Positions 12,656-40,355 of a stretch of DNA of 40,355 nucleotides are shown here, one piece after another; position 1 is the first letter of the stretch, and every line of letters starts with the position of its first letter. Source of the DNA: a virus; the IMG/VR virus record IMGVR_UViG_3300034018_000585, positions 1 to 40,355 of that record, one strand, 5' to 3'. Both the position numbers and the translations under genes were made by a program. Below the pieces are notes generated by a model. It was not told where the DNA came from, did no database searches, and was given only the letters and a program-made list of their open reading frames with translations.

Positions 12656-12684
12656 TTGCATTTCAAATCAAGCGCGCGTAGGGT
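12656..12684 (+). promoter_or_regulatory. early promoter for 12711 gene
   Basis: TTGCAT (12656-12661), 17-bp spacer starting TTCAAATCA, then TAGGGT (12679-12684). The start of the spacer matches the conserved spacer of the promoters at 13555, 14933 and 15263. The ATG is 27 bp downstream of the -10 box with a GAGGAGA site between. Confidence 0.6.
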
Positions 12685-12710
12685 TTGAACGTCATCTAGA
12701 GGAGATAGAC

Positions 12711-13554: not shown

Positions 13555-13583
13555 TTGCATTACAAATCAGCCTGGGGCATGGT
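13555..13583 (+). promoter_or_regulatory. early promoter, TTGCATTACAAATCA family
   Basis: TTGCAT (13555-13560), 17-bp spacer TACAAATCAGCCTGGGG, CATGGT (13578-13583). The spacer is shared almost exactly with 14933 and 15263. It drives the gene at 13625. Confidence 0.65.
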
Positions 13584-13624
13584 CTGGACATAGGCCAATC
13601 ACGGCCATGACGGAGAGAGATGCA

Positions 13625-14484: not shown

Positions 14485-14588
14485 CCCGCCTCATAGCCCT
14501 AGCCATGGAATTTGCCCTGACCGCCTTCACATTCGGCGCGTTGCTCTGGCTCATCATCGCCGCCTTCGTCGTGTTCGGTGGTCAATGA
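14481..14588 (+). CDS. 35-residue single-span membrane peptide
   Basis: Reads MTRLIALAMEFALTAFTFGA and continues through a hydrophobic stretch LLWLIIAAFVVF to a TGA at 14588. It overlaps both neighbours by ATGA, which is the main evidence that it is translated. It is almost entirely one membrane helix. Role unknown. Confidence 0.5.
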   Translation: MTRLIALAMEFALTAFTFGALLWLIIAAFVVFGGQ

Positions 14589-14908
14589 CCCGTTCAAAGA
14601 CGCCCGCATACACGCAAGCGGAGGACCTGCTATTGCTCCGCTTGCGTAATGACGGCGAGGCATGGGCGGATATGGCTCACGCCTTCCCCGGCCGCACACC
14701 GGCCAGCTTGCGCGGCCGCTATGGACAGATTGCCAAGACGCAAGAACGCCCGCCCATCGCCACGATTGACCCTGGCGACTACAAGGCCCAATGCGAGCGA
14801 CACGCCCGGATTGTCATGCGCCATGGCGGCTTTTGCGCGTTCAGCGACAACGGCGACAAGCGCGGCGCGTTCGGCATAACCCTGCCTATGATATGGCCCC
14901 AAAACTAA
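14585..14908 (+). CDS. SANT/Myb-like DNA-binding protein (GcrA-like N-domain)
   Basis: 107 residues from the ATG at 14585, overlapping the membrane peptide by ATGA. Residues about 9-50 (YTQAEDLLLLRLRNDGEAWA, then MAHAFPGRTPASLRGRYGQI) form a SANT-like trihelical fold of the kind found at the N-terminus of GcrA. The C-terminal half (DYKAQCERHARIVMRHGGFC) lacks the full GcrA Cys/His end. It is one of three such proteins here. It probably binds DNA or the host sigma factor; this is inferred from the fold only. Confidence 0.6.
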   Translation: MTRSKTPAYTQAEDLLLLRLRNDGEAWADMAHAFPGRTPASLRGRYGQIAKTQERPPIATIDPGDYKAQCERHARIVMRHGGFCAFSDNGDKRGAFGITLPMIWPQN

Positions 14909-14909
14909 T

Positions 14910-14961
14910 TTCATTTTTTCGCAAAAAGGCTATTGCATTACAAATCACCCTGGTTCATAGT
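14910..14961 (+). promoter_or_regulatory. early promoter, TTGCATTACAAATCA family
   Basis: TTGCAT (14933-14938), 17-bp spacer TACAAATCACCCTGGTT, CATAGT (14956-14961). Upstream, TTCA-N7-GCAA (14910-14924) keeps the right half of the operator-like element. It drives the membrane-protein gene at 15088. Confidence 0.6.
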
Positions 14962-15047
14962 CTGGTCATGGGGCGGCGGGCTTAGACCAGTCCGCGCGAT
15001 GTCCCCGACCCCCTCTCCGGGGCTGGGCTGTCCAGAATAGGAGGCGA

Positions 15048-15067
15048 GCCGGGGCGCTTCCCCCGGC
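15048..15067 (+). other. leader hairpin before 15088 gene
   Basis: GCCGGGG (15048-15054) pairs with CCCCGGC (15061-15067). It lies in a leader of about 120 bases, 20 bases before the start codon, with the ribosome site GAGGAGA outside the stem. No gene is seen between 14909 and 15087. Confidence 0.4.
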
Positions 15068-15087
15068 GCTCTTGAGGAGAAAGAGCA

Positions 15088-15255
15088 ATGTTCAAGAACC
15101 CCTGGTTCCTTACCGCCGCCGCCTATTTCGCCATTGCCTATGCCGTCATGGCGTTCGGATCGCCCGCGATGGAAAGCGTCCTCCGCAATGTCGCCCCGTG
15201 GGCGTTCGGGGCGTGGCTGTGGACCGGCATGTCCCGCTTGACGCGGGACGCCTAG
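15088..15255 (+). CDS. small membrane protein, 55 residues
   Basis: The frame starts MFKNPWFLTAAAYFAIAYAV at the ATG at 15088 with GAGGAGAAAGAGCA upstream and ends at a TAG at 15255. Two hydrophobic segments (about residues 5-22 and 36-49) suggest a small membrane protein with both ends on one side. It has its own promoter and sits between two early promoters, so it is a single-gene unit. Function is unknown; small early membrane proteins in phages often act in superinfection exclusion, but nothing here proves that. Confidence 0.6.
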   Translation: MFKNPWFLTAAAYFAIAYAVMAFGSPAMESVLRNVAPWAFGAWLWTGMSRLTRDA

Positions 15256-15262
15256 CCCAAGG

Positions 15263-15291
15263 TTGCATTACAAATCACCCCGGTATAACGT
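15263..15291 (+). promoter_or_regulatory. early promoter, TTGCATTACAAATCA family
   Basis: TTGCAT (15263-15268), 17-bp spacer TACAAATCACCCCGGTA, TAACGT (15286-15291); TATAAC at 15284 is an alternative -10 with a short spacer. It starts 8 bp after the previous stop and would drive the long early operon from 15319. Confidence 0.6.
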
Positions 15292-15318
15292 CAATCATCG
15301 CTTAGAGGAGAAAACGCG

Positions 15319-15540
15319 ATGTCCCAAGTTGTTAAGTTTGAGCCCGGCAAGACCTACGCCACGCGCTCCATCGTTGATGCTGATTATATCATCCGCGCCA
15401 CGATTGACCGCCGGACGGCGCGTAGCGTGTGGGTGGACGGCAAAGCTTTCCGCGTTGATGTGTATGACGGCGCGGAATTCATCCGGCCCTGGGGACGCTA
15501 TTCCATGTGCCCCGTTATCCGCGCCGACCGTGCGGCCTAG
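15319..15540 (+). CDS. hypothetical early protein, 73 residues
   Basis: Starts MSQVVKFEPGKTYATRSIVD after GAGGAGAAAACGCG. It looks like a compact beta protein: alternating strands DYIIRATIDRRTARSVWVDG and KAFRVDVYDGAEFI. I have seen similar short 'PGKTYxTRS' proteins in alphaproteobacterial phages, but the role is unknown. It is the first gene of the operon that runs to 19885. Confidence 0.65.
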   Translation: MSQVVKFEPGKTYATRSIVDADYIIRATIDRRTARSVWVDGKAFRVDVYDGAEFIRPWGRYSMCPVIRADRAA

Positions 15541-15543
15541 TCC

Positions 15544-16074
15544 ATGACCCCCCCCTGGACCCCCGAACAAGACCGCCAGCTTCTAGACCTGCAAGCTGGC
15601 GGTCATAGCGCCACCGAGATTGGCCGCACCATGCACAAGACGCGCAACGCCATCATAGGCCGTCTGTGGCGTCTCAGGCAGGTCGGCCTTGGCCTACCCG
15701 TCCGTAAGGCTGGCAAACGCGCTACGCTCCCCAAAGAGCCCAAGCCGGAGCCCGTGTTGCGCTATCCCAAGGAAAAGCCCGTCACGCTATCCACCGCCGC
15801 CAATATCGGCACGCCGCCACCCAAAGCACACATTACCAAGCGGCCTTGGCGCGAAGTCATGGACGAAGCCTTTTCGCCCATCCCAGGATCACGCCCGACG
15901 CGGCTTATGGACCGTGCCCCCATGTCTTGCGCGTGGCCTGTAGGCGGCGACGGCGAGGGGCTGTTAAGTTGCGCCATGCCCACTACCGGGCATGTCTATT
16001 GCGACCATCACCGGCGGATTGCCTATGTCCAGGCAAAGCCGCTAGACGTTAAACGCTACATGAGGATGAGATAA
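15544..16074 (+). CDS. GcrA-like cell-cycle regulator homologue
   Basis: 176 residues. The N-terminal domain WTPEQDRQLLDLQAGGHSAT (residues 5-24) continues to EIGRTMHKTRNAIIGRLWRL, the GcrA SANT-like fold. The C-terminal part has C129 in SCAWPVGGDGEG, C143, and VYCDHH at 152-156, matching the GcrA C-terminal CxWP and CxHH pattern that binds the sigma-70 domain 2. In Caulobacter GcrA activates sigma-70 promoters near methylated GANTC sites. Here it would redirect host RNA polymerase or mimic the host factor. The middle is proline/lysine-rich linker. The family assignment is strong; target promoters are not known. Confidence 0.85.
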   Translation: MTPPWTPEQDRQLLDLQAGGHSATEIGRTMHKTRNAIIGRLWRLRQVGLGLPVRKAGKRATLPKEPKPEPVLRYPKEKPVTLSTAANIGTPPPKAHITKRPWREVMDEAFSPIPGSRPTRLMDRAPMSCAWPVGGDGEGLLSCAMPTTGHVYCDHHRRIAYVQAKPLDVKRYMRMR

Positions 16075-16075
16075 C

Positions 16076-16531
16076 ATGACACCTGAAGAACTGGACGAAG
16101 CGCGAGCCAAGGAGGCTTGGCGCAAGTGTGATGCCTTGGGTTTTGGAAAAGACTATGAAAGCCCCGCCATCATCGCCGCCCGCTTAGCCCGCGAAGGCTG
16201 GACCCCGCCGCCGCCCGTTGATCCTGAGGTGCTGGCATATCGGGAGTGGGAGGTTAGCCAGCTTACAGATCACTTCGACCGGGAGAAAGTGCTTGCTGGA
16301 AAATGGGACCGAGGCGTCACCGCAACCGCCTACCTCGCCGGAGCCCGCATGGCCCGAGAGCAGGAACAGGAGCGGGCGAAGGTGCTGGTCGAGCCTGCCG
16401 AGGCTATCGTCAACCGCGCCGTGAGGGGGACGGGCTCAAACGATCTCCGCTGGCCCCACATCCTCAAAGCCGCCCGGCGGTTGGAGAAGGGCCTGAACGC
16501 CTACAAGGCCGGGAAGGAGGCGGGCAAATGA
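16076..16531 (+). CDS. hypothetical early protein, 151 residues
   Basis: Starts MTPEELDEARAKEAWRKCDA one base after the GcrA-like stop, with GAGGATGAG inside the previous gene. It is helical and charged. The central segment GVTATAYLAGARMAREQEQE resembles segments of small coiled phage proteins of this region. It ends AYKAGKEAGK, a variant of the KEAD ends of the genes that follow. The stop overlaps the next gene by ATGA. Confidence 0.6.
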   Translation: MTPEELDEARAKEAWRKCDALGFGKDYESPAIIAARLAREGWTPPPPVDPEVLAYREWEVSQLTDHFDREKVLAGKWDRGVTATAYLAGARMAREQEQERAKVLVEPAEAIVNRAVRGTGSNDLRWPHILKAARRLEKGLNAYKAGKEAGK

Positions 16532-16710
16532 CCCCCACCGAACAAGCCCGCAAAGCCGTAGGCTACGCGCTCGAAGAGGCCGAGATGTTTGACGGCATGA
16601 GCCGCCAGGACGTTGAACGCCACCATGCCGCCTTGGCCGCTATGCCTGACACGCTATTGGTATCGCTGGCCCGCCAGCTATGGACCGTTAAGAGGGAGAC
16701 GATGCGATGA
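16528..16710 (+). CDS. small hypothetical protein, 60 residues
   Basis: Starts MTPTEQARKAVGYALEEAEM at the ATG at 16528, inside AAATGA of the previous stop. All-helical and amphipathic (DVERHHAALAAMPDTLLVSL). Overlaps the next gene by ATGA. No known domain. Confidence 0.6.
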   Translation: MTPTEQARKAVGYALEEAEMFDGMSRQDVERHHAALAAMPDTLLVSLARQLWTVKRETMR

Positions 16711-17033
16711 GCAAACTTATTGAAGGCCCCGGAGACGACCTAGTTTGGGAGTCTGAGGACGACGCTACCCGCTGGGTAGATAGCCACCCCGAACTTACTT
16801 ACGCGGAAGAGATGGAGGCCGCAGCGAAGGCCTACCGCGCCGGTCGGGCCGCATCCGCCGAACGGATCAAGGCACTGGAGGAGGCTCTGAGGCCGCTGGA
16901 CGAGTGTGCGATTATTGGATCGGACTCTGGGTCGCGGCGGGCTTGGAATCCGGACGATCACGGCGCGCGATACTTCATTACCTACAGAGAAATCCGCCGC
17001 GCCCGCGCTCTGCTCAAGGAGGCTGACCAATGA
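16707..17033 (+). CDS. hypothetical early protein with ASAERIKALEE helix
   Basis: 108 residues starting MSKLIEGPGDDLVWESEDDA. The helix RAGRAASAERIKALEEALRP recurs almost exactly in the next gene (QAASAERIKALEEENAAL) and in part at 17987 (DRIKALELM). The end LLKEADQ is encoded by the boundary element AAGGAGGCTGACC, which is also the ribosome site of the next gene. No catalytic motif. It is probably a small helical accessory protein. Confidence 0.6.
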   Translation: MSKLIEGPGDDLVWESEDDATRWVDSHPELTYAEEMEAAAKAYRAGRAASAERIKALEEALRPLDECAIIGSDSGSRRAWNPDDHGARYFITYREIRRARALLKEADQ

Positions 17034-17506
17034 CTGAACCCGACGAGGCCCTGCTGTGGGCGAGGGACCATGAACTTAGGTCGCTTTTGGCGGCAGCTTC
17101 TCCCGGCCCTTGGCACCACGTTAACGCTGGCAAGGTTTCACGCAAGACGCGCACCGTTCACGGCACGGTTCCCGCCGAGCCCATCGACTATGTGTCAACA
17201 TGGCCCGGCCTTGGAACCCCTCCCGGCCACCGCGTTATCGTGCATCGTGAAGCCGGGGCTCGCACGGCTGATCTGGCGCTGATTGCCGAAGCCCCGGCCC
17301 TAGCTTCGGAAGTCCTCAATCTCCGCGCCGGTCAGGCCGCATCCGCCGAGCGGATCAAGGCGCTGGAGGAGGAGAACGCCGCCTTGGAGGAAATGGCGGG
17401 AAACCTTCAGGTCCGCATGAGCGACATGCTGGAGCGGCTGGAGGAGCGATACCCCGAGGACTTCGTGTGGCTAACAGAAGAACCCGCAAAGGAGGCTGAC
17501 CAGTGA
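17030..17506 (+). CDS. Ead/Ea22-like coiled-coil protein
   Basis: 158 residues. The N-terminal LRSLLAAASPGPWHHVNAGK has the LxxxxxATPGPW-type motif of Ead/Ea22-like phage proteins, followed by ARTADLALIAEAPALASEVL, also typical, and then a coiled coil (SAERIKALEEENAALEEMAG). Ead/Ea22 proteins are common in phage early regions; their role is not well known. It ends EEPAKEADQ through the shared boundary element. The start overlaps the previous stop as ATGA. Confidence 0.65.
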   Translation: MTEPDEALLWARDHELRSLLAAASPGPWHHVNAGKVSRKTRTVHGTVPAEPIDYVSTWPGLGTPPGHRVIVHREAGARTADLALIAEAPALASEVLNLRAGQAASAERIKALEEENAALEEMAGNLQVRMSDMLERLEERYPEDFVWLTEEPAKEADQ

Positions 17507-17805
17507 CTGACTGGATCGAACACGACGGCGGACCCCAGCCGGTCGCGGATGATGTGTGGGTGTATGTCGTGGACCCCATCGACGGCAATTATCAAAGCGC
17601 GTCTGACGAAGTCGATTGGCCCAACGCGGAACGATACCGCGTCCTCAACCAGCACCTGATCGACGCCGCCCGGCTAGAAGGCATCCGGCTAGGGCTGGAG
17701 GCTGCTGCGAGGGAGGCCGTCAATTGGGCTGTCATGCCCGCCAACTTTGACGCCGCCATCCGCCTACTCGACCCCGCCACCATCGCAAAGGAGGCTGACC
17801 GGTGA
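17503..17805 (+). CDS. DWIEH-domain protein, paralogue 1
   Basis: 100 residues; a GTG at 17503 overlapping the previous stop is the start. It opens MTDWIEHDGGPQPVADDVWV with an ASDEVDWPNAERYRVLNQH block, the small 'DWI-xH-xGG-xCPV...V-V...A...W...YRV' domain widespread in phage accessory regions. A helical tail follows (IRLGLEAAAREAVNWAVM). Paralogues with the same opening lie at 18843 and 19250. Function of this domain is unknown to me. Ends IAKEADR through the boundary element. Confidence 0.65.
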   Translation: MTDWIEHDGGPQPVADDVWVYVVDPIDGNYQSASDEVDWPNAERYRVLNQHLIDAARLEGIRLGLEAAAREAVNWAVMPANFDAAIRLLDPATIAKEADR

Positions 17806-17990
17806 GTGAGGTCCACGTTGAGGTGAAGTGCATCAACGCGCATGACAGGTGCTTTGAAGGCGGCCCCTGTCCGCTTTGCGAGGTGGTCCGCTACCGGGAC
17901 GAACAGGGCCGGTTTGTCAAACCCAGGGGGCGCTCCTCGTTAAATGAGGCTCTGGCCGCCGCTCTGCATGTCAAGGAGGCTGACCGGTGA
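17802..17990 (+). CDS. small Cys-containing hypothetical protein
   Basis: 62 residues from a GTG at 17802. Four cysteines lie in an ordered pattern: KCINAHDRCFEGGPCPLCEV, i.e. C-x7-C-x5-C-x2-C. This may bind a metal ion. It ends HVKEADR. The GTGA overlap and strong ribosome site support translation. Confidence 0.55.
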   Translation: MSEVHVEVKCINAHDRCFEGGPCPLCEVVRYRDEQGRFVKPRGRSSLNEALAAALHVKEADR

Positions 17991-18157
17991 GTGACGATGA
18001 CCGCATCAAGGCGCTGGAGTTGATGGCGGTGCTGTCCGAGATTTTCAATCGCCCTGAGTTGAGCAGAGTGCGGTGGGAGGAGCCGGATCGCGTTACCTAT
18101 CTCATTCGTCGTGCTGGCTTTCTCGCCGGGTTTCTTGCCGGGGAGGCTGACCAGTGA
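17987..18157 (+). CDS. small hypothetical protein, 56 residues
   Basis: Starts with GTG at 17987, reads MSDDDRIKALELMAVLSEIF, and ends FLAGEADQ at the TGA at 18157. The RIKALE segment repeats that of two upstream genes. It is helical, with a mildly hydrophobic second half (RRAGFLAGFLAG). The boundary element on both sides makes it part of the coupled series. Confidence 0.55.
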   Translation: MSDDDRIKALELMAVLSEIFNRPELSRVRWEEPDRVTYLIRRAGFLAGFLAGEADQ

Positions 18158-18318
18158 ACCCTAGTTGGTTGATCCTCCATATCGTTGACGCCCTGCGCGT
18201 CCCGTCGCCCCCGCCGCATCCCGCTGACGGCTACTGCTCCGACGCTCTGGCCTTCGGGCTAGGCGTGGCGGCTGTCGTTTCGTTCGTCGCTATTCTCGTA
18301 TGGGGAGTGCTGCCGTGA
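18154..18318 (+). CDS. small membrane protein, 54 residues
   Basis: Starts with GTG at 18154 inside the boundary element and reads MNPSWLILHIVDALRVPSPP. One clear membrane helix lies near the C-terminus (GLGVAAVVSFVAILVWGV). A proline-rich stretch precedes it. The TGA at 18318 overlaps the next GTG. Unknown role. Confidence 0.5.
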   Translation: MNPSWLILHIVDALRVPSPPPHPADGYCSDALAFGLGVAAVVSFVAILVWGVLP

Positions 18319-18497
18319 GTTTTGAACGACAAATCAGCCTGATGGTTATGTTTTGGGTTGGCGTCATGGGTTTTGCCCTATTCGCAAGCGAGTGGAAAAG
18401 CTGGCCCTTGCGAAAACGGGCTCTCGCCGTCGCATGGCTGGTCTTCTGGCTTGGCCCGCCGCTGTATTTCATCTGGACCAAAGGAGTGCTGGGATGA
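18315..18497 (+). CDS. small two-span membrane protein
   Basis: 60 residues starting with GTG at 18315, preferred over the ATG at 18300 because GGGGAG precedes it and it keeps the stop-start overlap of the series. MSFERQISLMVMFWVGVMGF leads into a first membrane helix (about residues 8-24). A second spans ALAVAWLVFWLGPPLYFIW. The short loop between is basic. Function unknown. Confidence 0.55.
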   Translation: MSFERQISLMVMFWVGVMGFALFASEWKSWPLRKRALAVAWLVFWLGPPLYFIWTKGVLG

Positions 18498-18670
18498 CCT
18501 ACCCCAAAGAACTGCAAGACTACTACGACGCGCATGATCGGATGATGGACGCGGAGCGTGGATGGAATTCTCTGCATTACCATTGGCCGCTCTTTTTCGG
18601 CCTCTACAAGATCGCCCGATACAACGCCGTCAAGGCTGGCTATCTGCCCGAGCGACCGGAGTTTGGCTAA
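18494..18670 (+). CDS. small hypothetical protein, 58 residues
   Basis: Starts MTYPKELQDYYDAHDRMMDA at the ATG overlapping the previous TGA. Rich in Tyr, His and Trp; no membrane helix is clear. The stop TAA overlaps the next start as TAATG. No family recognised. Confidence 0.55.
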   Translation: MTYPKELQDYYDAHDRMMDAERGWNSLHYHWPLFFGLYKIARYNAVKAGYLPERPEFG

Positions 18671-18846
18671 TGGCCGGGCGCCCGGTTGAATGGACCAAAG
18701 AGGAGGACGCCACGCTTTATGCCATGTGGCGGGACGGATATACTGCCCGCCTGATCGCGCTGGAATTGGGCAAGTCCCGTAGCGCGGTCCTGGGGCGAAT
18801 GTATCGACTGGGATTCAAGAAACAGCATGTTGAGGGGACGTTATGA
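18670..18846 (+). CDS. GcrA-like N-domain only protein
   Basis: 58 residues. WTKEEDATLYAMWRDGYTAR (residues 8-27) and LGKSRSAVLGRMYRLGF form the same SANT-like DNA-binding fold as the N-terminus of GcrA and of the gene at 15544. The C-terminal sigma-binding Cys/His part is absent, so it could compete for DNA sites without activating, as a natural antagonist. This is inferred from domain content. It overlaps the next gene by ATGA. Confidence 0.65.
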   Translation: MAGRPVEWTKEEDATLYAMWRDGYTARLIALELGKSRSAVLGRMYRLGFKKQHVEGTL

Positions 18847-19438: not shown

Positions 19439-19885
19439 ATGTTTGAATGGGGCTATCTACCGCCGCGCAAGGACCAGCGGCCTAACCAGCATCGCCTCAC
19501 GCCCGAGCAGATGGAGGAAGGCCGGATTAAGGGCCGGAAGTCCAGCAAGGGCAAACTACGCGGCGATGCGGCCTATTACCGCGCCTTGCGGGCGCTCAGG
19601 CGCACTCATTCGACCAAGGGCGTTGAAGCCGCCAACCAATGGAAAAAGGACAACCCGGAGGAATTCAGCCGCCGGGTTTCCAAGGCCATGAAAACGGCTA
19701 TCCATAAATCCTGGGCTACGCGGAAGATCAATCGTGCAATTCAATTGCGCGGGGACTCGAAAGCGTATAAAAGACCCCCGCGAGTTGAGTTGAAGAAAAA
19801 GAATTCCTCGCCGCCCCCCTCGCGTGTCTCTCCTCCATGCGAGGGGGGCAACCCTTCTGAAAATAAGGCTGTGGACAAGGCGTGA
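19439..19885 (+). CDS. basic hypothetical protein, 148 residues
   Basis: Starts MFEWGYLPPRKDQRPNQHRL. It is very basic (GRIKGRKSSKGKLRG, then ALRALRRTHSTKG) with no membrane helix, so nucleic-acid binding is likely. The C-terminal 40 residues are low-complexity (RPPRVELKKKNSSPPPSRVS). No HNH or other nuclease motif is evident. It is the last gene of the rightward early operon. Confidence 0.6.
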   Translation: MFEWGYLPPRKDQRPNQHRLTPEQMEEGRIKGRKSSKGKLRGDAAYYRALRALRRTHSTKGVEAANQWKKDNPEEFSRRVSKAMKTAIHKSWATRKINRAIQLRGDSKAYKRPPRVELKKKNSSPPPSRVSPPCEGGNPSENKAVDKA

Positions 19886-39064: not shown

Positions 39065-40355
39065 TTAAGCCCTTTCTTTGGCTTTGACGTAGAAGGTAGC
39101 ATACGGAAAGGGGGTGTCCCCGTCATGGTTCCTGTATAGCACATCATATCCTGCAAATTGTTCTTCCCACCATTCGACGGGAAAAACCGATAGATGCAGG
39201 GGATGCCCTATCAGCGAGCCCATATTGTCATGAAACATCGCAATCTTAAAGAAGCACTTGTCAACGCAATCCATAATGTTTCGGATCGCGTCTGGCACTT
39301 TTTCAGGTTCGATATGCTCCATTACGTCGGTGCAGTATCCGATATCGGCGCTCACCTTCATTGACATGGACTGCGTGAGGTCCGCGTAAACGAATGGAAA
39401 CTGCCCGCGAAGGTCAAGGCAGTTGTCCGCGAAGTCCACAAAAACCACATCGCAGTTGGTCAGCCGGTTGATTGCAAGCCCGCCGCGCCCGGTGCCGCAC
39501 CCGAAGTCCGCGATGATGTCGAGGAAGTGCGGCTTGACCACCTTGGCGAATTCCTCCGCAAAGCCCTCTCCAGGGGACATCGTGCGGTAGGAGTCAAACT
39601 CCCACATTTTGCGGTATTTCTCTTCCTCAGTGATCGGCTGGGAAGCAAGGCGCATCTGGTGCATCACTTCCATGATAAGCCCGTCCGAATCCACCGTGAC
39701 GATGCAACCAAGGTCGATCAGGTTGTTGCAGACTTCGGGGAACAGTTCGGCTTGCCGCGCCATAGTCAGGCTGGACGTGAACGTCTTGCCGCCAAGCGTG
39801 ACCTTGCACAGCGGTTCCGTCGCATTGATCGGCTGTTCGTAGGCGTGTCCAAGACTGGCGCGGTGCGATGAGTCATAGCCGAACAAGTGCAGCTTGCGAT
39901 AGCCGAGCGTGTAGGCAAGGCACATGGACGACAGCCCAACCGTCGTGCCGCCGCCGATAAGGGCATATTCGTCGTCGTGGGCGGGCAAATGCTCATCAAT
40001 GCCCTCAATGGCCGGATGCCACACAAAGGGGTCGCCTAGGGCCTTGAAAATGGCCGGATCGCACTGTGAGGCAATCAGATACTTCTTCGCGCTGCCAATC
40101 AGGGCGATGTTGTCAGGGCGAGCGTCGAGAATGACCTGATACTCGGGAATGATGCCATTCTCGTTCAGGAACTTGGTCGCGCCGTTCAGGGCGAAGATCG
40201 TCTGCCCTAAGTCCTTGCGCTTTTTGATTGTGGGTAGGTGTTCCTGGAGCGATGGACCGCCGCCGACAATGACCGCGTGTCCGTCATGCGCTTCGAGCAT
40301 CTTGATCCAGGACCGATGCTTGCGCGAGTTTTCACCAATGTTGGCGAAAAGGGTT
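39065..40355 (-). CDS. DUF115-methyltransferase fusion, copy 2 (5' end missing)
   Basis: The frame runs from the window edge to a stop at 39065. The first visible residues are TLFANIGENSRKHRSW, so about 12 residues are missing compared with copy 1. The DUF115 part has VIVGGGPSLQEHL, YQVILDARPDN and YALIGGGTTVG. The C-terminal 150 residues are a class I SAM methyltransferase: ADFGCGTGRGG is motif I, FVDFA motif II and YCTDVMEHIEPEKVP the motif IV region. DUF115 proteins act in glycan transfer or pterin chemistry. Fused to a methyltransferase in a virion operon it may decorate virion or cell-surface glycans; this is inferred. Confidence 0.85.
   Translation of the reverse strand, partial: TLFANIGENSRKHRSWIKMLEAHDGHAVIVGGGPSLQEHLPTIKKRKDLGQTIFALNGATKFLNENGIIPEYQVILDARPDNIALIGSAKKYLIASQCDPAIFKALGDPFVWHPAIEGIDEHLPAHDDEYALIGGGTTVGLSSMCLAYTLGYRKLHLFGYDSSHRASLGHAYEQPINATEPLCKVTLGGKTFTSSLTMARQAELFPEVCNNLIDLGCIVTVDSDGLIMEVMHQMRLASQPITEEEKYRKMWEFDSYRTMSPGEGFAEEFAKVVKPHFLDIIADFGCGTGRGGLAINRLTNCDVVFVDFADNCLDLRGQFPFVYADLTQSMSMKVSADIGYCTDVMEHIEPEKVPDAIRNIMDCVDKCFFKIAMFHDNMGSLIGHPLHLSVFPVEWWEEQFAGYDVLYRNHDGDTPFPYATFYVKAKERA
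39358..40355. repeat. right copy of 998-bp diverged terminal repeat
   Basis: Ungapped partner of 1-998 with 46 differences by hand count, identical in the outermost 100 bases at the left and 114 bases at the right. Most differences are silent in the encoded protein. Merging the two copies gives a circle of 39357 bp. Confidence 0.95.

Follow-up and report, generated by a model that had tools for sequence, protein, structure and literature searches.

A candidate GcrA-based regulatory cassette with its own promoter-like repeats in a phage with a likely alphaproteobacterial host

The complete IMG/VR virus record IMGVR_UViG_3300034018_000585 (40,355 bases, about 59% G+C; hereafter the window) is predicted to encode a full GcrA protein, with a DNA-binding domain (DBD) and a putative part for binding domain 2 of sigma70, together with a DBD-only GcrA protein and a SANT/Myb-domain protein whose N-terminal domain appears related to the GcrA DBD at the level of the fold. 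The same region holds four promoter-like repeats, P1–P4. We propose, tentatively and at slightly short of an even chance, that the stretch from 12.6 to 19.9 kb is an autoregulated early-type cassette in which the phage GcrA would act as a sigma70 cofactor and the DBD-only protein would compete for its sites. Single GcrA homologs have been known in phages since phiCbK; what appears to be new here is the multi-protein set and the promoter family.

GcrA belongs to the regulation of the alphaproteobacterial cell cycle, in which it responds to DNA methylation. In cellular GcrA, an activator with separable DNA-binding and sigma-interacting domains, one end binds sigma70 domain 2 and the other promoter DNA, and the protein helps open complexes to form at methylated promoters (PMC7403470). 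The features that concern us here, all on the plus strand, are the following; the three protein-coding frames named in the original prediction (14585–14908, 15544–16074 and 18670–18846) were confirmed as open.

12656..12685, plus strand: P1, promoter-like repeat TTGCAT-N17-TAGGGT, spacer TTCAAATCA, from the repeat search and motif scan
13555..13584, plus strand: P2, promoter-like repeat TTGCAT-N17-CATGGT, spacer TACAAATCA; GAATC in 5 of 8 orthologous copies
14585..14908, plus strand: SANT/Myb-domain protein, 107 residues, with conserved C-terminal tail QCERHA..MRHGGF.AFSDNGDKRGAFGI..P.IWP (the SANT-tail protein), from Myb matches, tail conservation and fold
14933..14962, plus strand: P3, promoter-like repeat TTGCAT-N17-CATAGT, just 3′ of the SANT-tail gene; GAATC in relative G003
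15263..15292, plus strand: P4, promoter-like repeat TTGCAT-N17-TAACGT, immediately before gene 15319 and gcrA
15319..15540, plus strand: small open reading frame (ORF) between P4 and gcrA, 73 residues, ending 3 nt before gcrA
15544..16074, plus strand: full-length phage GcrA, 176 residues, from PF07750, PDB matches and conserved Cys/His
15544..15693, plus strand: its predicted DBD, residues 1–50, helices 7–18, 23–30 and 34–46, from superposition on 5yiu
15883..16032, plus strand: its predicted sigma-interacting domain, residues 114–163, with C129, C143, C153 and H156, from 5yix/7ye1 and the invariant Cys/His
18670..18846, plus strand: DBD-only GcrA protein, 58 residues, from PF07750 and PDB 5yiu
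19439..19885, plus strand: conserved gene 3′ of the DBD-only gene, adjacent or overlapping in relatives L004, L012, L014, L037 and L038

Results

Full-length and DBD-only GcrA proteins

The protein encoded at 15544 matches the GcrA family profile PF07750 over both domains (residues 5–163, profile positions 3–147 of 155; E 1e-13, 52.4 bits, the Pfam gathering cut-off being 26.9 bits). Its PDB matches include GcrA 7ye1 (E 2.4e-7), the sigma-interacting domain 5yix (E 0.0035) and the GcrA DBD. The predicted structure superposes best on the GcrA DBD 5yiu (Z 7.0, root-mean-square deviation (rmsd) 1.0 Å over 46 residues, 39% identity), and the sigma-interacting domain 5yix_B ranks fourth among its structural matches (TMt 0.63, with a weak E of 0.58); with Foldseek alone, neither this model nor that of the SANT-tail protein had a match with E below 0.001. 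The CAWP..C..YC..H pattern of the sigma-interacting domain is invariant in 10 relatives, and the recognition helix, TRNAIIGR, is close to the TRNAVIGK of host GcrA. These matches confirm the earlier claim that the protein carries both a DBD and a Cys/His sigma-binding end. Scores against the NF050816 equivalog (41.6 bits, and 27.4 bits for the protein at 18670) are both under the curated cut-off of 280, so the phage protein is not an ortholog of host GcrA. In a tree in which the poorly extracted, long-branched phiCbK row was given no weight, the phage GcrAs fall into a single clade, separate from the Hyphomonadaceae host GcrAs (support 99/97), and are thus not a recent capture from a host.

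On the evidence of its sequence, the protein at 18670 is a DBD-only GcrA, as the original prediction had it. Its match to PF07750 (E 1.7e-8, 35.4 bits) is restricted to profile positions 2–48 of 155, it matches the GcrA DBD 5yiu in the PDB (E 4.7e-7), and no sigma-interacting domain is found in its 58 residues, which stop after the DBD. The gene overlaps the preceding one by TAATG and the following one by ATGA.

A SANT/Myb protein related to GcrA at the level of the fold

The SANT-tail protein had been proposed as the third of three GcrA-like proteins, with a related N-terminal domain and a different tail. We reject its membership of the GcrA family: PF07750 gave no match at E ≤ 1, tail included, and the best Pfam match is instead Myb PF00249 (E 1.3e-4, 22.5 bits, just below the cut-off of 24.4). 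The best PDB match is the Trichomonas Myb 3osf (E 1.8e-6). What does hold, judging from profiles and models, is a relationship to the GcrA DBD at the level of fold or superfamily. Comparing the profile of its family with that of the phage GcrAs, hhalign gave an alignment of 44 columns (97%). In superposition, the model of the SANT-tail protein came within an rmsd of 1.0 Å of the DBD 5yiv over 44 residues and reached a Z of 8.2 with 5yiu, tied with Myb repeats (Z 8.6 for one of them). The tail is conserved in relatives, differs from the sigma-binding domain and has no match in Pfam, PHROGs or NCBIfam. Thus the profile search that had been set in advance as a refutation was passed by the protein at 18670 but went against the claim for that at 14585, leaving two proteins, at 15544 and 18670, over the PF07750 cut-off. 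A small-terminase role for the SANT-tail protein (fold match 6ejq) was considered and is retained solely as a rival, weighed below.

A homolog in L041 (1005–1493; genome G011) carries the same tail after a pair of SANT repeats; it matches Myb over the PF00249 cut-off (26.9 bits) and PF07750 weakly, and so links both families. Among 385 alphaproteobacterial genomes, SANT-domain matches to the SANT-tail family were found in one genome only, using a first-look filter that scored few candidates per genome. An alphaproteobacterial genome of about 1 Mb (G404, loci L084–L086) has three ORFs with a SANT domain that match the family weakly.

Promoter-like repeats

The repeats were found by a repeat search and extended by a motif scan. 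They are candidate sigma70-like elements, each with TTGCAT, a 17-nt spacer and a weak −10, and share a conserved sequence within the spacer; for three of the four, a plausible gene has its ribosome-binding site or its start codon within about 60 nt downstream. The 15-mer core occurs in four copies, all on the plus strand and within 2.6 kb, compared with a mean of 0.05 per shuffled genome. Position weight matrix scores of P1–P4 are 32–47, against a maximum of 14.6 in 12 simulated genomes, with a model built from the same copies. Generic scanning of the region for sigma70 promoters and terminators gave matches at the level of shuffled sequence and no information.

Relatives hold orthologous copies of the repeats that share the spacer. 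The spacers in the window read AAATCA, a one-base variant of GAATC, which is a CcrM site and is present in P2 of five relatives (G002, G003, G006, G007 and G008) and in P3 of G003. It lies there mostly within CGAATCG (overall form CGAATCG/A), and the other strand reads YGAKTCG, the extended motif of GcrA-activated promoters (PMC7987155). Such 7-mers number two in G003, both in the P2 and P3 spacers, one in G008, in P2, and five in G007, one of them in P2. In the window, in G001 and in a contig from a metagenome-assembled genome (MAG), P2 has no GANTC and the remaining spacer is kept.

For a count of GANTC sites near phage promoters, put forward earlier as a check, intergenic DNA of the window holds 3 sites in 4.5 kb and shows no enrichment (0.67 per kb, versus 1.62 per kb in coding DNA, with hand-made gene limits). 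Because sites are scarce there, methylatable GANTC seems to be missing from the promoters of the phage itself. We rejected the idea that GANTC generally serves as an operator in the window, as its intergenic density is below that of coding DNA and its conservation is ordinary.

Conservation and linkage in relatives

All three genes are present in L004, at 95, 95 and 100% identity in the order 14585, 15544, 18670, and L003 and L005 hold the first two, their sequence ending before the third. G006, G007 and G008 form a second clade, with GcrA and SANT-tail proteins about 50–55% identical and the order SANT-tail, GcrA and then another DBD protein; in G007 and G008 an ortholog of the protein at 18670 follows further downstream, giving four such proteins in one order. 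DBD-only orthologs are present in L004, L012, L014, G007 and G008. In four distant contigs (G010, G011, L110 and L111), where GcrA is 35–37% identical, the SANT-tail gene immediately precedes gcrA, and the two overlap by 4 nt in G010 and G011. Altogether, of 12 contigs showing the DNA upstream of gcrA, 11 have the SANT-tail gene there (the window, G001, G002, G003, G006, G007, G008, G010, G011, L110 and L111).

Among close relatives dN/dS is 0.06–0.13 for the genes at 14585 and 15544 (0.07–0.13 for the former alone), and that at 18670 shows six synonymous and no nonsynonymous changes. These values indicate that the gene set is kept under purifying selection in close relatives; taken with the four proteins of G007 and G008 and the linkage of the SANT-tail gene to gcrA, they show that the set is no accident. 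The small genes around the set are far more shuffled than the set itself.

Several other arrangements were observed in this region. In G007 and G008 an unrelated gene of 198 residues is inserted between gcrA and the second DBD gene (L037 5006–5602 and L038 4849–5445), and in G006 these two genes overlap directly. The gene after gcrA in distant relatives (L040 3068–3421, L041 2053–2385, L110 629–982 and L111 810–1163) resembles DnaA domain IV (PF08299; E 1.8e-11 and over the cut-off for L041, 2.4e-5 and under it for L040, the assignment for L110 and L111 being read from near-identical sequence), so that SANT-tail, GcrA and DnaA-like DNA-binding genes there form a triplet in a row. In the window, five gene junctions between 17012 and 18161 share AAGGAGGCTGACC(A/G)(A/G)TGA, the last having GGGGAGG. 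The junction sequence closes one gene (often as ...KEADQ/R) and supplies the next with its ribosome-binding site, and may provide a preformed joint at which recombination shuffles small genes. The genes at 17503, 18843 and 19247 are a paralogous trio starting MTDWIEH...PV, and coiled-coil segments AGxAASAERIKALEE are repeated at 16835 and 17323.

Gene content and host

Matches in PHROGs identify a terminase, portal, tail fibre, endolysin, Cas4-type exonuclease and Sak4-like annealing protein, and a RepB/AAA helicase-primase is also encoded. No integrase or repressor was found among the families searched with the window proteins (ten proteins lay outside this search), the window holds no tRNA genes, and PADLOC returned no defence or counter-defence matches in it.

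No match was found by tblastn of the proteins at 15544 or 14585 in named phages, so the host was assigned from composition, the MAG contig and relatives of the portal, which belong to Bradyrhizobium, Rhizobium, Ruegeria, Myxococcus and Stenotrophomonas phages. The window has 61 GANTC sites where 158 are expected (observed/expected 0.38, a 2.6-fold depletion), making GANTC the most depleted of 16 N-centred palindromes. The ratio is 0.27–0.28 in rhizobial phages with related portals, 0.99 in Myxococcus Mx8 and 0.68 in Stenotrophomonas BUCT555; alphaproteobacterial genomes show about 2-fold depletion (PMC3973325). In addition, a syntenic 4.3-kb contig (L047) sits in a Hyphomonadaceae MAG. Because of this depletion and this contig the host is likely to be alphaproteobacterial, in support of the original prediction. 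The family Hyphomonadaceae is a guess. A search for the portal in that MAG gave no match, and its contig may thus be a binning error or come from a free phage. A DBD of the GcrA type is found on its own in Escherichia phages as well, so the DBD by itself is no host marker.

The two ends of the window are direct repeats of 998 bases (1–998 and 39358–40355; 95.4% identical, 46 mismatches) inside a methyltransferase-like ORF on the minus strand (39065–40300), and could stem from duplication of a gene end or from closure of a circular genome with strain variants. GTAC occurs once in the window (13723) where 65 sites are expected, is absent from the 39.4 kb of G007 and occurs twice in the 40.0 kb of G002; this near-absence suggests that a restriction system cutting at GTAC exerts strong pressure. 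Depletion is mild in the Hyphomonadaceae loci (53 versus 84).

Discussion

In the scheme that we favour, the phage GcrA would ride on host sigma70 and recognise CGAATCG/A or CAAATCA in the spacer, thereby stimulating open-complex formation at promoters with a weak −10 and making the cassette self-activating. Later in the cassette, translationally coupled genes would yield the DBD-only protein, which would bind the same class of site without contacting sigma and so damp or end expression, whilst the SANT-tail protein may be a second DNA-binding partner or co-regulator that assists or competes. Relatives with a GANTC spacer would read host CcrM methylation, and the AANTC form that the window phage has is unmethylatable; there may also be effects on GcrA promoters of the host. 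The earlier idea of an activator and its antagonist thus survives in reduced form, although that of three GcrA-family proteins does not.

A number of points weigh against this scheme. The window has no GANTC in P1–P4, and the counts of GAATC in the spacers of relatives, suggestive as they are, are not independent since the relatives share ancestry. GANTC sites are conserved no better than other palindromes (16 of 21, versus 48–86%). The repeats may serve host sigma70 alone or another regulator, and the DBD-only protein could regulate other sites. Model confidence is low for the linker of the full-length protein and for the tail of the SANT-tail protein, and the MAG contig is without a SANT-tail gene, which is therefore not always needed.

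Phage GcrA might instead, in line with the originally predicted takeover of the host CcrM-GcrA cell-cycle programme, act mainly on methylated GANTC promoters of the host, driving it to a replication-competent state, with the domain-only copies tuning or blocking host GcrA. Such a change in host replication state has been proposed for phiCbK gp222 (PMC3556154) and Atu_ph08 (PMC6630229), and it would fit the host-like domain content and recognition helix of the protein at 15544 and the scarcity of GANTC in phage intergenic DNA. We nevertheless consider it unlikely, though a serious contender, as the promoter family belongs to the cassette itself and has, in relatives, a spacer element of the GcrA type, and the phage GcrAs are an old clade of their own rather than a recent host copy.

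Two further explanations seem to us improbable. The small SANT and DBD proteins may be unrelated utility DNA-binding proteins (small-terminase-like, nucleoid or anti-restriction) that share a helix-turn-helix fold with GcrA. Three-helix folds of the SANT/Myb type are indeed common, the SANT-tail model superposes on the phage small terminase 6ejq (Z 7.2, 12% identity) and the genes of the region are heavily shuffled; yet the protein at 18670 is over the PF07750 cut-off and aligns best with GcrA, and the SANT-tail gene stays linked to gcrA across phages only 35% identical. A shade less probable again is that host GcrA reads the promoter spacers, coupling phage early genes to the host cell cycle and methylation, while the phage proteins act elsewhere. 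The GAATC sites of relatives fit the host YGAKTCG on one strand, and CtrA-driven promoters in Caulobacterales phages provide a precedent (PMC9437464). However, P2 of the window, G001 and the MAG contig has lost GANTC with the rest of the spacer kept, which means that host GcrA cannot be reading methylation in every case, and the presence of gcrA-type genes in the cassette would be left unexplained.

Compared with Caulobacter GcrA (PF07750; NF050816; 5yiu, 5yiv, 5yix, 7ye1 and 7ye2), the protein at 15544 has the same order of DBD and Cys/His sigma-interacting domain and that at 18670 shares the DBD only. The phage linker has a conserved PWREVM.EAFSP block, whereas the host linker is described as unstructured, and the phage proteins form their own clade with several per genome. 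Other phage-borne PF07750 proteins include phiCbK gp222, Atu_ph08 gp5 and the GcrA homologs of Brevundimonas jumbo phages, for which a SANT-tail partner or promoter repeat is not reported. Caulobacter phage GB2A/RW (GB2A_gp060) and Phaeobacter phage MD18 have a GcrA DBD for which PF07750 covers little or none of the sigma-binding part, and differ in having no full GcrA in the same genome by this profile. PF07750 matched once in each of phiCbK, Atu_ph08, three Brevundimonas jumbo phages, GB2A and MD18, compared with two to four per genome here (some extra ones in relatives being below the family cut-off). The Myb/SANT domains (PF00249, PF13921) resemble the N-terminal domain at 14585 in fold and sequence, but the phage protein is a single repeat with a conserved tail. 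Our literature search found no paper combining GcrA with a SANT-tail partner, DBD-only copies or such promoters.

In conclusion, the cassette combines candidate phage promoters, a putative phage activator and a natural domain-only counterpart, and offers a small test system (a genome of about 40 kb, proteins of 58–176 residues and four short candidate promoters) for asking what GcrA does in infection. Extending our scheme, one could imagine a one-base toggle, CGAATC or CAAATC, between a methylation-reading and a methylation-blind switch, driven by the phage GcrA, opposed by the DBD-only GcrA and partnered by the SANT-tail protein: an epigenetic transcription module complete in itself and assembled from components of the host cell cycle, a proposal that we regard as speculative and rather doubtful. 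If the spacer element is the target, its natural GAATC and AAATC versions would allow methylation-dependent and methylation-independent GcrA action to be compared.

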